Positions 619-44,992 of a stretch of DNA of 64,000 nucleotides are shown piece by piece (position 1 is the first letter of the stretch; every line of letters begins with the position of its first letter). The stretch covers positions 37,959 through 101,958 of the forward strand of contig CAIYUN010000051.1 in assembly GCA_903929355.1 (NCBI GenBank), written 5' to 3'. Source of the DNA: an uncultured Opitutaceae bacterium (GTDB lineage Bacteria; Verrucomicrobiota; Verrucomicrobiia; Opitutales; Opitutaceae). Made by a program: the position numbers and the translations under genes. The notes under the pieces are model-generated. The model did no database searches, had not been told where the DNA came from, and worked only from the letters and a program-made list of their open reading frames with translations.

Positions 619-1746
619 ATGAACACCATCGCCGACCCCGCCGCCTCCGTCTCTGAGTTTGTGGACGTCGCACCCGACCGCCCCGCGACCGCCGGCCGGG
701 CCCGGACCCGGGTCCTCCGGGTTGCCTGGGGCAAAATCCTGGCCGGCACGGCTCTGGCCGCCGTCGCGACGGCGGTTGCCGCCTACGTCCATCATGCCGC
801 CGGCTATGAAAGCACCGACGACGCCTTCCTTGCGGGCGATGTTCACCCGATCAGCGCCCGCATCAACGGCACCGTCAGCCGGGTGCTGGTGGACGACAAC
901 GCCGTGGTTCGGGCGGGCGAGCCGCTGGTGGAAATCGACCCGGCCGACCTGAACCTCGCGGTGCAGGGGGCCGCGGCCGACCTCGCCCAGGCGCAGGCCA
1001 ATCTGATCCAGGTCGCGGCCCAAATCACGCGGGCCCGGGCGGAGGTGGACGCCGCCACTGCCCGGATCGCCCAAAACGCCGCCCAACTCACCCGCGCCGG
1101 GCTCGATTTCCACCGGGTCGAGCAGCTGGCGGACGACCATTTCAGCGCTGTCTCGGCCCAGGAGCTGGACGCGGCGCGCGCGGGCTATGACGCCACCAAG
1201 GCCGCCAGCCAGTCGCTGGTCGCTGAGCACGCCTCGGCCGAGGCCGGCCTCGCCGCCGCCGAGGCCCAGCGCTCCGTCGCCCTCGCGCAGATCCAAAAGG
1301 CGGGTGCGGCGCTCGACGCGGCGAAGCTGCAGGTGGACTACACCGTCATCCGCGCGCCGAACTCCGGCCGGGTGGCCAGGAAAAATGTCGAGGTCGGCCA
1401 GCGCCTGCAACCCGGCCAGCCGGTGATGGCGGTCGTGGACCAGCAGGTGTGGGTCGTCGCCAACTTCAAGGAAAGCCAGCTGGCGCGCCTGCGCGCCGGC
1501 GAGAAGGTGGCGATTTCCGTCGACGCCGTGGAGGGCCGGCAGTTCGGCGGCACGGTGCAGAGCTTTGCCCCCGGGACGGGGGCGGAATTCTCGCTCCTGC
1601 CCCCGGACAACTCCACCGGCAATTTCACCAAGGTTGTCCAGCGGGTGCCGGTGAAGATCCTGTTTTCCCCCGCCGCGCTGGCCGCCGGCGGCGAGCGGTT
1701 CGCGCCCGGGCTGTCGGCCAACGTCAGTGTTTCAATCCGCCAGTGA
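619..1746 (+). CDS. HlyD/EmrA-family membrane fusion protein of a multidrug efflux system
   Basis: N-terminal TM, ESTDDAFLAGDVHPISARINGTVSRVLVDDN, long coiled coil, VIRAPNSGRVARKNVEVGQ, LLPPDNSTGNFTKVVQRVPVKI. Confidence 0.93.
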   Translation: MNTIADPAASVSEFVDVAPDRPATAGRARTRVLRVAWGKILAGTALAAVATAVAAYVHHAAGYESTDDAFLAGDVHPISARINGTVSRVLVDDNAVVRAGEPLVEIDPADLNLAVQGAAADLAQAQANLIQVAAQITRARAEVDAATARIAQNAAQLTRAGLDFHRVEQLADDHFSAVSAQELDAARAGYDATKAASQSLVAEHASAEAGLAAAEAQRSVALAQIQKAGAALDAAKLQVDYTVIRAPNSGRVARKNVEVGQRLQPGQPVMAVVDQQVWVVANFKESQLARLRAGEKVAISVDAVEGRQFGGTVQSFAPGTGAEFSLLPPDNSTGNFTKVVQRVPVKILFSPAALAAGGERFAPGLSANVSVSIRQ

Positions 1747-1754
1747 ATCAACTG

Positions 1755-1925
1755 ATTGGTATCCGTGTCCATCCGCGGTAAAACTCCGAAATCCGTCCTT
1801 CTTCCCTCTCCCCCCAAAATTCGCGTTCATTCGCGGTTCCTCTTTCTGCCCTCCGTTCCCTTCGTTCCCTTCTGTTCAAATCCGTCTCTCCCATCCGTGT
1901 CCATCCGTGTTCATCCGTGGTTCCA
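1755..1925. repeat. Cluster of dispersed word-like intergenic repeats (ATCCGTGTCCATCCGTG type)
   Basis: ATCCGTGTCCATCCGCGG, TTCGCGTTCATTCGCGGTTCC, TCCGTTCCCTTCGTTCCC, CCATCCGTGTCCATCCGTGTTCATCCGTGGTTCC between emrA and emrB. Confidence 0.75.
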
Positions 1926-1939
1926 ACCTCCTTTTTAAG

Positions 1940-3505
1940 ATGAAACCTTCCCCCTCCCTCCCCGCTGCGCCGGCGGAACACGTCTCCCTTCGGACCTGGA
2001 TCGGCACCTTTGGCGCGATGCTGGGTGCCTTCATGGCGGTGCTCGACATCCAGATCACCAACTCCTCGATCCGGGACATCTCGGGTGCGATTGGCGCCAG
2101 CCTGGACGAGAGCACCTGGATCTCGATCGCCTACCTCGTGCCGGAGATCATCATCATCCCCCTCACGGGGTGGCTCACCTCGATCCTCGGCCTGCGCCGG
2201 TATCTGATGATCACGTCGGTGCTCTTTCTGCTGTGCTCGGTCCTGTGCGGTCACGCGTGGAGCCTCGCCAGCATGATCGTCTTCCGCGCCGGCCAGGGGT
2301 TCTTTGGCGGGGCGCTCATCCCGCTTTCGTTCACGGCCGTGCTGCAAATGCTGCCCCCGTCCAAGCACGCCACCGGCTTTGCGCTGTTTGGCCTCACGGC
2401 GATGTTTGCCCCCTCCATCGGGCCGAGCGTCGGGGGCTGGCTCACGGACAACTGGGGCTGGGAATGGAATTTCTACCTCAACCTGCTGCTCGGTCCCGCG
2501 CTGCTCGCCTCGATCTGGTATGGCTTCCCGCCGGAGCCGGCGCGCTGGGACCAGGCGCGCCAGATTGATGCCCCGGGAATCCTGCTGCTGGCGCTTGGGC
2601 TCGGCTCGCTGACCATGTTCCTGGAGGATGGCACGCGGAACGACTGGTTTGGCTCGACCTACATCACCCGGCTGGCGCTGGTCGCCGCCGTGACGCTGCC
2701 CTTGTTTGTGCTCTGGGAGCTGCGGGCGAAGCACCCGGTGACCGACCTGCGGGTGTTTGGCCGGCGCAATTTTGTCCTCGGCTCGCTGATCAACGTTTCG
2801 CTGGGCGGGGCGATGTACGGCTCGATCTTCCTCCTGCCCCTCTATCTTGGGACCATTCAGGATTACGGGGCGTCCGACATCGGCCGCACGCTCATCTGGG
2901 GCGGGGTGCCGCAGTTGTTCATCATGCCGCTGCTGCCCTGGTTCATCCGGCGGTTCGACATCCGCAAACTGATCTCATTCGGACTGCTGCTGTTCGGGGC
3001 GAGTTGCCTGATGAACACCGCACTGTCACCGGACTTCGCCCGCGACCAGTTCCGGTGGTCGCTGCTGGTGCGGGCGCTGGGCCAGCCGTTCATCATGGTC
3101 CCGCTGTCCACGCTCTCGACGGCGGGGATCCCGGCCGGGGCGTCCGGGCTTTACAACATGATGCGCAACCTCGGCGGGTCGGTCGGCATCGCGTTGCTCT
3201 CGGCGCTCCTCACGGTGCGCGAGCGGTTCCACTCCAACCGGCTGGGGGAGGCGGTCAGCGCCTACAACCCGCTCACCCAGGAGCGCCTCGTGGCGCTGAC
3301 GGCAAAATTCACCGCCGCCGGCAGCGACGCCTACACTGCGGGCCGGCAGGCGGTCGGAATGCTCGACGCCACCGTGCGGCGCGAGGCGAGCCTGATGGCG
3401 TTCAACGACTGCTTCCATGTGCTCGGCCTGGTGCTCCTCGGCATGATCGTCGTGGCGCTCCTTTGCCGGCCCACCAAGGGTGGGGGCTCCACCGCGGCGC
3501 ACTGA
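1940..3505 (+). CDS. DHA2-family MFS multidrug efflux transporter (EmrB-like)
   Basis: MKPSPSLPAAPAEHVSLRTWIGTFGAMLGAFMAVLDIQITNSSIRDISGAIGASLDESTWISIAYLV...; 14-TM DHA2 motifs; follows HlyD gene. Confidence 0.93.
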   Translation: MKPSPSLPAAPAEHVSLRTWIGTFGAMLGAFMAVLDIQITNSSIRDISGAIGASLDESTWISIAYLVPEIIIIPLTGWLTSILGLRRYLMITSVLFLLCSVLCGHAWSLASMIVFRAGQGFFGGALIPLSFTAVLQMLPPSKHATGFALFGLTAMFAPSIGPSVGGWLTDNWGWEWNFYLNLLLGPALLASIWYGFPPEPARWDQARQIDAPGILLLALGLGSLTMFLEDGTRNDWFGSTYITRLALVAAVTLPLFVLWELRAKHPVTDLRVFGRRNFVLGSLINVSLGGAMYGSIFLLPLYLGTIQDYGASDIGRTLIWGGVPQLFIMPLLPWFIRRFDIRKLISFGLLLFGASCLMNTALSPDFARDQFRWSLLVRALGQPFIMVPLSTLSTAGIPAGASGLYNMMRNLGGSVGIALLSALLTVRERFHSNRLGEAVSAYNPLTQERLVALTAKFTAAGSDAYTAGRQAVGMLDATVRREASLMAFNDCFHVLGLVLLGMIVVALLCRPTKGGGSTAAH

Positions 3506-3777: not shown

Positions 3778-4203
3778 ATGAAACGCAAAGCCTCCGCCGT
3801 CTGGCACGGCGACCTCAAATCCGGTCGCGGTGCGATCTCCACCGAAAGCACCGTCCTCCACGACACTCCCTATGCCTTCGGCACCCGTTTCGAAAACGGA
3901 CCGGGCACCAATCCCGAGGAACTGATCGCGGCCGCACACGCCGGTTGTTTCAGCATGGCGCTCTCCGCCGAACTGCAAAAGGCCGGTTTCACCGCGGACA
4001 CGATCGCCACCACCGCGACGGTCACGCTGGAGAACCATCCGCAGACCAGCTGGACCATCACCAAGGTCCTGCTCGAGACGACGGCGAAAATTCCCGGCAT
4101 CAGCGCGGGCAAGTTTGAGGAGATCGCGCAGGGCGCGAAGGCGGGCTGCCCGGTCTCGCGCCTGCTCAAGGCCGAGATCACCCTCGACGCCAAATTGGTC
4201 TGA
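3778..4203 (+). CDS. osmC: OsmC/Ohr family peroxiredoxin-like protein
   Basis: [24 protein letters not shown]...[17 protein letters not shown]...[22 protein letters not shown]; typical OsmC with two Cys. Confidence 0.92.
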
Positions 4204-4309
4204 TTCCCGGTTTCAGATACTCCGAAGGATCGGAATTCCACCGAGCCATGGATTTGGAACTTATCATACCAACGTCTGTTGTGATTTAGACTTTGTGCTT
4301 GCTCCGGCG

Positions 4310-4480
4310 TGTCCTCCGACTTGTCCGCCATAGCCTTGGCGAAGGCGGAAGCTTTAGCGTAGGAGGAGGGTAGGGCGCGACCGCCTTGTCGCGTCGGCTT
4401 GTCCGCCGTAGCTTTAGCGAAGGTGGAAGGCTTGGCGAAGGCGGATGGGCGCGCCTTGTCGCGCCATAGGCTTGCTTGCC
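4310..4480. repeat. Imperfect repeats of the GCCTTCGCCAAGGCTATGGCGGACAAG ('FAKATADK') type
   Basis: Minus-strand reading gives ...[22 protein letters not shown]...[19 protein letters not shown]; repeated gcgaaggcgga / gacttgtccgcc units. Confidence 0.75.
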
Positions 4481-4530
4481 GCGCCAAAGCCATGCGACGG
4501 CGGGGCGACGGCGGACGCTCCGGGTTGGAG

Positions 4531-4550
4531 CTGCGGCGACCTCGCCGCAG
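4531..4550. repeat. Perfect 9-bp stem hairpin within the MITE-like element
   Basis: CTGCGGCGA-CC-TCGCCGCAG. Confidence 0.7.
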
Positions 4551-4590
4551 TTTATCTTGGCTATCGTCTAAAGATTACCAGACGTTGGTA

Positions 4591-5709
4591 TTACCGCACG
4601 CGCACGTTCACGATCACCGACAGGCCAAGCCGCAACCGGGGGCCGACGGCGGCGAGGCTCTCCTTATCGAGGACGATCTTCACCGGGATGCGTTGCACGA
4701 CCTTGTTGAAGTTGCCGGTCGCGTTGTCGGGTGGCAGCAGGGCGAACTGCGAGCCGCTGGCCGGGGCGAGGCTCTCCACGGTGCCGTGCAGGGTCACGCC
4801 GGGCAGGGTGTCCAGCGTCACCTCGGCGACCTGACCGGGCACAATCCGGGTGAGCTGCGTCTCCTTGAAGTTTGCCACAATCCAGGCGTCGGGCGAGGCC
4901 AGCGCCAGCAACGACTGGCCGACGAGGGCGTAATTGCCGACCTCGACCGCCTTGTTGCCCACGCAGCCGTCGGCCGGGGCGGTGATCGTGGTGTAGGTCA
5001 GCAGGCGTCGGGCGTCATCGAGCGCCGACTGGGCGACGGCCACATTGGCGGTGGCCGCCCCGAGCCTGGCGGTGAGCGAGGTGCGGGCGGCGTGGGCCGA
5101 ATCCACCGCCGCGCGGGCGGCGACGAGGTTGGCCTCATTGGCCGCGCGGGCGGCCGTGGCGGCTCGAAAGGCGCCGCGGGTCGTGTCGAGATCGGCCTGG
5201 GCGATGACATGCCCTCCGGCGAAGAGCTGCTCGCCGCGGTCGAGGTTCTGCTTCGCGAGATTGAGCTCCGCCTCGGTCTGGCCGAGCTGGGCCTCGGCCT
5301 GCTGGACCCGCGCCTCGGCACCGGCAATCTCCGTGTCGGCCTGGGCCAGGGCGGCGTTGCCTTCGGTTTCCTGGGCCCGGGCCTGGTCGAGCTGGTCCTG
5401 CGCCTTTTGGACGGCCAGGGTGAATTGCAGCGGGTCGAGCCGCACCAGCACGTCGCCGGCCTTGACCATTTGATTGTCGTTCACCGGCACGGCCGCCACC
5501 TGGCCGTTGATCTGCGGGCTGATCTGGAACAGGTGGCCCGACACATAGGCGTCGTCCGTCTCCTCATAGTGCGCGGCGTGCAGGGCCGCGCGGGCGAGCC
5601 ACACGCCGACGGCGAGCACCGCCACCGTCACCAGGACCGGCCGCCAAAGCGGGCGGCGCGGGCGGGCGGGAGGGTGGACGGCGGCGGGAGTTTCGGGCGG
5701 GAGGCTCAT
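4591..5709 (-). CDS. HlyD/EmrA-family membrane fusion protein
   Basis: MSLPPETPAAVHPPARPRRPLWRPVLVTVAVLAVGVWLARAALHAAHYEETDDAYVSGHLFQISPQINGQV...LLPPDNATGNFNKVVQRIPVKIVLD. Confidence 0.93.
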   Translation of the reverse strand: MSLPPETPAAVHPPARPRRPLWRPVLVTVAVLAVGVWLARAALHAAHYEETDDAYVSGHLFQISPQINGQVAAVPVNDNQMVKAGDVLVRLDPLQFTLAVQKAQDQLDQARAQETEGNAALAQADTEIAGAEARVQQAEAQLGQTEAELNLAKQNLDRGEQLFAGGHVIAQADLDTTRGAFRAATAARAANEANLVAARAAVDSAHAARTSLTARLGAATANVAVAQSALDDARRLLTYTTITAPADGCVGNKAVEVGNYALVGQSLLALASPDAWIVANFKETQLTRIVPGQVAEVTLDTLPGVTLHGTVESLAPASGSQFALLPPDNATGNFNKVVQRIPVKIVLDKESLAAVGPRLRLGLSVIVNVRVR

Positions 5710-5720
5710 GGGAAAAATAA

Positions 5721-7334
5721 TCAGTGGGCGGCGGCGGCCGCGGTCTGGTTGGAACCCTTGTCCAGCAGCAGGAGCAGCGGGAGGGACGCCAGAAACGCGG
5801 CGGCCACATAGAAAAACACCTCGGCAAACGAGAGCAGCAGCGACTGGGAGTTCACGGCGTGGTCCAGCGCCGACCACATCTGCTGCCGGGCCAGCACGGG
5901 ATCGGCGGAGCGGGTGGCGAACAGCTCGCCGAGGTACTGGCCGCGCAGGATCATCGCGGGATTGGCCGTGGTGATGTGCTCGACGAGCCCCGCGCGATGC
6001 AGCGCCTCGCGCCGGGCCAGCACCGTGGTGATGACGGCGATCCCGATGCTGCTCCCCATCTGCCGGGTGAGGCTGTAGATGCCGGAGCCGGCGGCGATCT
6101 CGCGCTTCGGGAGCGCGCCGAGCGTCGCCAGGCTGAGCGGGACAAAGATCATCACCGCCCCGATGCCGCGCAACAGCAGCGGCAGGAAGAGCGAGCCGGT
6201 GCCGGTGTCGGGGTTGATGGTCGCAAGCAGCAGCGCCGTCGCGACCGTCACGAGGGCCCCGATTGCGATCAACACCCGGGCGTCGAACCGGCCGGACACC
6301 TTGCCCATGATGATCATGGTGACCGCCGAGGCAAAGGCCCCGGGCATGAGAAGCAGGCCGCTCTGCATGGCGGTGAAATGCAGGTAGTCCTAGGTGAAGA
6401 TGGGCACGGCAAACATCACCCCATAGAGCCCCATTCCGAGCACGAGCGAGTACACGCTGCCCGCCGCCAGCGACCGGTGCCGGAGCACGCGCAGGTCCAC
6501 CGCCGGGTGCTCCGCGGTGAGTTCCCGCCAGAGGAACAGGCCGCCGCCGGCCAGCGCGCCCACGGTCATCGTCAGGATGAAGCGCGAGCTGAACCAGTCG
6601 TCCTGCTGCCCCTCCTCCAGCATCGTCTGGAAGCAGGCCAGCCCGAGCGTGAGCAGGCCGATCCCCGCCCAGTCCACGGGCTTGCTCTCCCGGTCCTCCG
6701 GGCGGTCACGCGGCAGAAACACCATCGTCATCAGGACCGCGATGATACCGAAGGGCAGGTTGATGAAGAAAATCCAGCGCCAGCCCAGTGTGTCGGTCAG
6801 CCAGCCGCCGAGCACCGGCCCGAACGCCGGCCCGGCGATCACCCCGATGCCGAACAGCGCCTGCGCGGCCGGCTGCTCGTGGCGGGGAAAGGTTTCAAAC
6901 AGGAGCGACTGGGCCTTGGCCAGCAGGCCGCCGCCGCACAGCCCCTGGAGCACCCGCGCGATGATCAGCATCATCAGACTCGTGGACAGGCCGCAGAGGA
7001 CGGACGCCGCGGTGAAACCAGCGAGTGAGAAGAGGAGGTATTGCTTTTTGCCGTAGCGGTAGCCCAGCCAGGCGGTGAGCGGGATCATCACCACATTGGC
7101 GCAGGCATAGCCGGTGGACACCCAGCCGGCCTCGCTGAGCGTGGCCCCCAGGTTGCCCCGGATCTCGGGCAGGGCGACGTTGACGATGCTGGTGTCAATG
7201 ATCTCGAGGATCGCCCCCAGCGCCGCCGTGACCGCGATGACCCATTTCAGGATCCCGCGGTCCGCCAACCGCGCGGCCAGCGGGCCGAGCAGACTGCGGT
7301 CGGAGCCGTAAAGTCCCGGGACTGCTTCGCTCAT
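5721..7334 (-). pseudogene. DHA2-family MFS transporter (EmrB-like) interrupted by an in-frame amber codon at 6390-6392
   Basis: ORF 6390-7334 ends ...GVMFAVPIFT*; the same frame continues DYLHFTAMQSGLLLMPGAFASAVTMIIMGK... (ORF 5721-6368). Only TAG separates them; no frameshift. Confidence 0.85.
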
Positions 7335-44398: not shown

Positions 44399-44992
44399 CT
44401 ACTCCCTCCAGGTAAACGCATGACACAACGCCACCCCTGCGGCGTCGGCCTCGTCGGAGGCGAGCGGGCGGCCGTGGCCGAGCAGGGCCATCACCGTGCG
44501 TGCCATCTGCTCCTTGCTCGCCCGGCCGGCGCCGACGACCGCCTGTTTCACCCGCAATGGCGGGTACTCGAAAACCTCGTGGCCCGCCACCGCTGCGGCG
44601 GCGATGGCCGCCCCGCGCGCCGCGCCCAGAATCTGCGCTGTCCGGATGTTCTGCACGTAGATCGTCTGCTCCAAGGCGACATGCCGCACTCCGGTGCCGT
44701 CGAGCATGGTCGCGACCGCGCGGTAAATTTCGCCCAAGGCGAAAGCCATCGAGCGTTTGGGCGGCACCCGCAGGGTCTGACTACGCAGCAGGACCGGCGA
44801 CCGTCCGGGAATAAACTCGACCAGCGCCAGCCCGGTCCCGCGGAGCGAGGGGTCAATGCCCAGCACCACGCCGGCAAACGCGCCGCGCGCCGGCCGGCCC
44901 AGCGCGAGCGTCGCGCCCGCGCCTCCGGCTGACGGGAGGTTTTTGCCCTCGAGTTTGGCCTTCCACATCTGCCGGACGTTCATGCGCGCCAT
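44399..44992 (-). CDS. ruvC: Crossover junction endodeoxyribonuclease RuvC with N-terminal extension
   Basis: [19 protein letters not shown]...[59 protein letters not shown]...[13 protein letters not shown]. Confidence 0.94.

Follow-up and report, generated by a model that had tools for sequence, protein, structure and literature searches.

The 64,000-nucleotide stretch of DNA from an uncultured Opitutaceae bacterium that was analyzed here (the window) contains a noncoding segment lying between an OsmC-like gene and an HlyD/EmrA-like efflux gene. The genes and features at this site are as follows.

3778 to 4203, plus strand: OsmC-like gene, across the element from the efflux gene (Pfam OsmC, 69.8 bits)
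4264 to 4266, plus strand: left copy of the target duplication, TCA, assigned by the TNA rule of the family; TCA is also the stop of the orthologue in the congener G003
4267 to 4590, no strand: MITE, 324 bp, TACC...GGTA, delimited by paired terminal inverted repeats (TIRs) and family alignment
4267 to 4291, plus strand: left TIR, TACCAACGTCTGTTGTGATTTAGAC, identical in the copy on contig C52 and closely similar in other copies and in relatives
4317 to 4448, plus strand: two diverged copies (4317-4370 and 4395-4448; 80% identical) of another dispersed repeat
4370 to 4395, plus strand: GTAG-tagged, REP-like palindrome inside the element, with similar sequences scattered elsewhere in the genome (for this family of palindromes, see PMC3733652)
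4531 to 4550, no strand: internal palindrome, CTGCGGCGACCTCGCCGCAG
4566 to 4590, minus strand: right TIR, TACCAACGTCTGGTAATCTTTAGAC, assigned by pairing of the inverted arms
4591 to 4593, plus strand: right-hand target duplication, TTA, serving as the TAA stop of the emrA-like gene; one base off the left copy
4591 to 5709, minus strand: HlyD/EmrA-like efflux gene, with the element inserted at its stop codon (Pfam HlyD_D23, 61 bits)

Two EmrA/EmrB-type efflux cassettes converge on this region (619-3505 on the plus strand and 4591-7334 on the minus strand, with EmrA proteins ∼42% identical), and the OsmC-like gene and the MITE are situated between them. Downstream of the emrA-like gene lies an EmrB-like MFS efflux gene (5721-7334, minus strand) with an in-frame stop at residue 315 of 538; it may be a pseudogene or contain a sequencing error.

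The first-pass annotation placed 26-bp TIRs at 4266-4591. Inverted arms of 26 nt are present there (4266-4291 and 4566-4591, 81% complementary and separated by 274 nt), and the number of exact 13-nt inverted pairs expected by chance in ∼650 bp is ∼0.003, but the ends need correction: the outermost bases, 4266 (A) and 4591 (T), are part of the target duplication, and the true ends lie one base inward at 4267 and 4590, leaving TIRs of 25 bp within which the termini are near-identical. On its right side the element runs up to the TAA stop of the emrA-like gene (4591-4593, minus strand), in agreement with the original claim of an insertion immediately 3' of that gene. The interior (4267-4590) contains no likely gene, as was also claimed, the element has no match to Rfam families, and no sigma-70 promoters or terminators are predicted within it. 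This copy is ∼130 bp longer than the common form of the family because it contains the two diverged copies of another dispersed repeat at 4317-4448.

The element folds as a strong hairpin on both strands (z scores of -5.9 and -5.2), as do most other copies, which are also long hairpins. Its position directly after a stop codon would fit an immobile element kept as a functional 3' hairpin of the efflux gene, acting in RNA stability or termination; however, it has no terminator-like T run, it is absent at the orthologue in G003, and its copies are scattered at unrelated genes, and we consider that this explanation almost certainly does not apply. A side effect of the hairpin on the efflux-gene transcript is possible.

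Element BLAST together with a search for the terminal 13-mer recovered ∼8 paired copies in the window's genome (3.8 Mb in 91 contigs), mostly about 175 to 205 bp in length, with paired copies at the following positions.

C52: 1387-1582
C84: 1931-2207 (275 bp)
C6: 2628-2819
C27: 3644-3839
C38: 29860-30064
C21: 32206-32384
C81: about 44622-44812

The repeat search suggested in the first-pass annotation thus recovered a multicopy family, and the situation that would have spoken against a MITE (a single copy fixed in all relatives, with TIRs never paired elsewhere) was not encountered. Paired elements collected across Opitutaceae number 65 and range from 74 to 393 bp, although in a few of these the same ends are paired in a second way or the pairing is due to chance, and figures derived from the set are accordingly approximate. 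Thirteen of the 15 matches to a TIR scan of 84,980 genomes were in Opitutus, Opitutaceae, Opitutae, or unclassified Verrucomicrobia MAGs, and a search of 373 genomes of the order allowing two mismatches found the TIR in many copies in G002, G021, G111, G135, and G157, while the reversed TIR pattern used as a control gave almost no matches in the same 373 genomes. A single unpaired, chance-like match to the TIR pattern was found in viral contigs; plasmids yielded no match to either the element or the transposase described below, and viral contigs yielded nothing for that transposase. Taken with the target duplication and empty sites described below, the TIRs and the dispersed short copies devoid of a transposase indicate, at the level of sequence comparison, that the segment belongs to a genuine MITE family.

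The TIRs are common to different genera, while the interiors are unrelated between them. Of 45 interiors, 25 contain GTAG-tagged palindromes (scored as GTAGG), versus ∼6 in shuffled sequences (maximum, 15), though interiors are common to copies of one genome and these counts are consequently not independent events. To our knowledge, target duplications are not expected of Y1 transposases, and this counts against the idea that the elements are REP- or REPIN-like palindromic clusters moved by a Y1 (RAYT) transposase instead of a DDE enzyme. The excess of palindromes would favor such an origin, as would the richness of Opitutus terrae in GTAG REPs and the presence of TIRs around some RAYT-like genes (PMC3733652); yet it is the TIRs and not the REPs that are shared between genera and that mark the ends of insertions, making a RAYT origin extremely unlikely. 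The GTAG REPs would instead be passengers accumulated in MITEs.

The sequences flanking the 65 paired elements define the target. On the left, T was present in 57 and A in 63 of the 65 elements, and on the right, T was present in 59 and A in 58. The middle base was equal on both sides in 51 of 65, and the whole triplet was identical in 38 of 65, versus at most 22 of 65 in 2,000 shuffled pairings; when only distinct sites with TNA on both sides were considered (n = 46), the middle base agreed in 38. Filled and empty versions of one locus in another genus, lying between two convergent genes, gave the same picture: a 92-bp copy lies between two TCA triplets in G135 and G137, and a single TCA without the element is found in G134, G131, G132, G030, and G010. 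In G130, the interval between these genes contains an unrelated sequence of ∼190 bp (L249, about 1723-1916). These comparisons show that the family duplicates TNA, 3 bp directly outside the element, and not TA.

The first-pass annotation had viewed the segment as a canonical IS630/Tc1-type MITE in which the repeat starts at CCAACG and the flanking TA is the target duplication. TA is present at both ends of most copies, and the candidate partner transposase is of the IS630 family, so that the assignment to this group held in part and the TA duplication did not. Because the C38 copy ends in TG...CA, a change of the terminal dinucleotide made as an inverted repeat, the terminal TA is part of the element itself; the outer TNA, by contrast, covaries between the two sides. 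Empty sites were indeed found as had been proposed, but they contain one TCA that becomes two upon filling, with no TA-TCA, and TA as the duplication is thereby ruled out. The canonical reading is accordingly very improbable, and the MITE family departs from the TA target duplication by which the IS630 family is recognized.

Whatever its middle base, a TNA triplet reads as a stop codon on one of the two strands. In the window copy, the right duplication is the TAA stop of the emrA-like gene and the left duplication is TCA, one base different, while the emrA orthologue of G003 (69% identical) has its stop codon at the same position as TCA (TGA) and no element. Beyond the stop the G003 sequence is not homologous, making this an empty site on the gene side only. 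The simplest history would be that the element most likely inserted into the TGA stop (TCA on the plus strand) of the efflux gene, that the reading frame stayed closed owing to the duplication, and that a later change on the gene side turned TCA into TTA (TGA to TAA). Across the family, 15 of 63 elements occupy the stop codon that closes an open frame of 120 codons or more, versus 9.8% of neighboring TNA sites (P of about 0.001), a modest enrichment in which the frames are counted as open frames and not as verified genes.

Inspection of unpaired TIRs located a candidate partner transposase. On contig C76 of G021, a TIR with TCA outside runs straight into a transposase gene; on C70 of G194, a TIR with TGA outside lies against that gene's 3' end. 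The G021 and G194 pieces overlap by 78 residues, all of them identical. A third TIR, on C12 of G086 and also with TCA outside, adjoins a C-terminal fragment of 59% identity where the contig ends. The G021 and G194 TIRs are alike at 28 of 29 positions, and the TIRs of the window copy match both in 21 to 22 of 29. The G021 piece scored 123 bits against the NCBIfam model transpos_IS630 (NF033545; cutoff, 100) and contains HTH_33 and DDE_3 domains, and the G194 piece supplies the remainder of DDE_3 (46.8 bits) with a PYSPELNPVE motif. An IS630-type transposase is therefore encoded next to these TIRs in relatives, while the window element itself has no gene. G021 also bears many MITE ends of the family.

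The search for a full-length transposase with these TIRs, also proposed at the outset, was answered in part: IS630-type genes were found, but none of the three copies (G021, G194, and G086) is an intact autonomous one that retains both ends and both duplications, all being interrupted or cut by contig edges. The G194 copy is interrupted by an apparent IS21-type element and the G021 copy stops at a similar sequence near its contig end, so that these transposon copies of two genera (L284 and L286) break at apparently the same IS21-type sequence. The shared break and the 78 identical residues suggest recent transfer.

An alternative is that the enzyme behind the MITEs is an IS5-family (IS1031-type) or Harbinger-like transposase, a kind that normally duplicates TNA; the TNA target with a 3-bp repeat does match the IS1031 group (PMC12016507). 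However, the published IS1031-group TIR, GAACCTGTCTAGTATCT, is unlike that of the family, and it is IS630-type genes that do carry the family TIRs, leaving this alternative improbable. Four Pfam families (DDE_Tnp_1, DDE_Tnp_1_2, DUF4096, and DDE_Tnp_4) were considered as IS5-family or Harbinger-like partners and rejected, as the loci recovered in 10 to 13 genomes had no matching TIRs.

None of the TIR-bearing loci retrieved from the window's genome encodes the transposase, and for this reason we infer mobilization in trans, in which an IS630-type transposase, its source perhaps now lost from that genome, would have moved the MITEs; the enzyme of the relatives is the presumptive mover. We consider it highly probable that the window segment is a nonautonomous MITE of an Opitutaceae-wide family that depends on an IS630-type DDE transposase in trans and duplicates a TNA target. 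The IS630-family enzyme would bind and cut ends that consist of TACCAACGTC, a spacer, and then TTTRGAC, and integration at a TNA trinucleotide would be followed by duplication of that TNA.

In most respects the family works as an ordinary MITE. Bacterial MITEs such as Correia/NEMIS, RUP, ERIC, and Nezha are 70 to 300 bp long, noncoding, gene adjacent, and hairpin forming, with TIRs of 15 to 30 bp (PMC3733652), and the Opitutaceae elements share their short length, TIRs, absence of coding capacity, proximity to genes, and hairpins, but differ in the TNA duplication and in interiors that change wholly between genera while the TIRs stay constant. By its partner enzyme the family is IS630, yet it fails the target-duplication test of that family. 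For the bacterial IS630 element ISY100, which has been studied in vitro, TA is the nearly exclusive target and is duplicated (PMC2170065); the partner resembles such IS630-Tc1-mariner elements in its match to the IS630 transposase model, its HTH and DDE_3 domains, and its organization as a single-gene element with TIRs, whereas the duplication of the Opitutaceae family is TNA. Duplication of TNA or TAA is known in the eukaryotic elements Tc4 and Fot of the IS630-Tc1-mariner group (PMC11071193, PMC7386202), a likeness that consists of the duplication and of membership in the superfamily, the level at which the sequence relationship was compared. The IS1031 group of IS5 has the same TNA target and 3-bp duplication (PMC12016507) but another transposase family and another TIR. 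ISAzo13 and Zator make 3-bp duplications and are distantly related to IS630 (PMC10045372, PMC7386202), but the partner matches DDE_3 and the IS630 model, and no ISAzo13 DDE family is among the Pfam matches listed. We found no bacterial IS630 element with a TNA duplication in the literature, which is weak evidence given that subscription papers were mostly outside the search.

A broader scenario, to which we assign an even chance, is that the target of one bacterial IS630 branch shifted to TNA from the ancestral TA. Any site it uses would then read as a stop codon on one strand, and an insertion in a last codon would restore the stop; the MITE TIRs would have persisted across genera, with interiors exchanged time and again for host-specific GTAG-REP palindromes. 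Duplication of TA is regarded as a defining trait of IS630/Tc1/mariner elements; a bacterial IS630-type element with TNA, if true, would parallel the Tc4 and Fot exceptions and offer a tractable system in prokaryotes for studying changes in the target stagger of the superfamily. The case also illustrates how stop codons can be occupied by an element that leaves the genes unbroken. The TIR sequence, TACCAACGTC, can be used to annotate noncoding repeats in Opitutaceae genomes. Element interiors in G035 (L093, L081, L087, and similar copies) consist of the palindrome GTCATGGCGAGGAGCGAAGCGACGAAGCCATCC, and similar sequences are found inside L109 and L155 of other genomes; this palindrome may resemble a repeat present in many bacteria.
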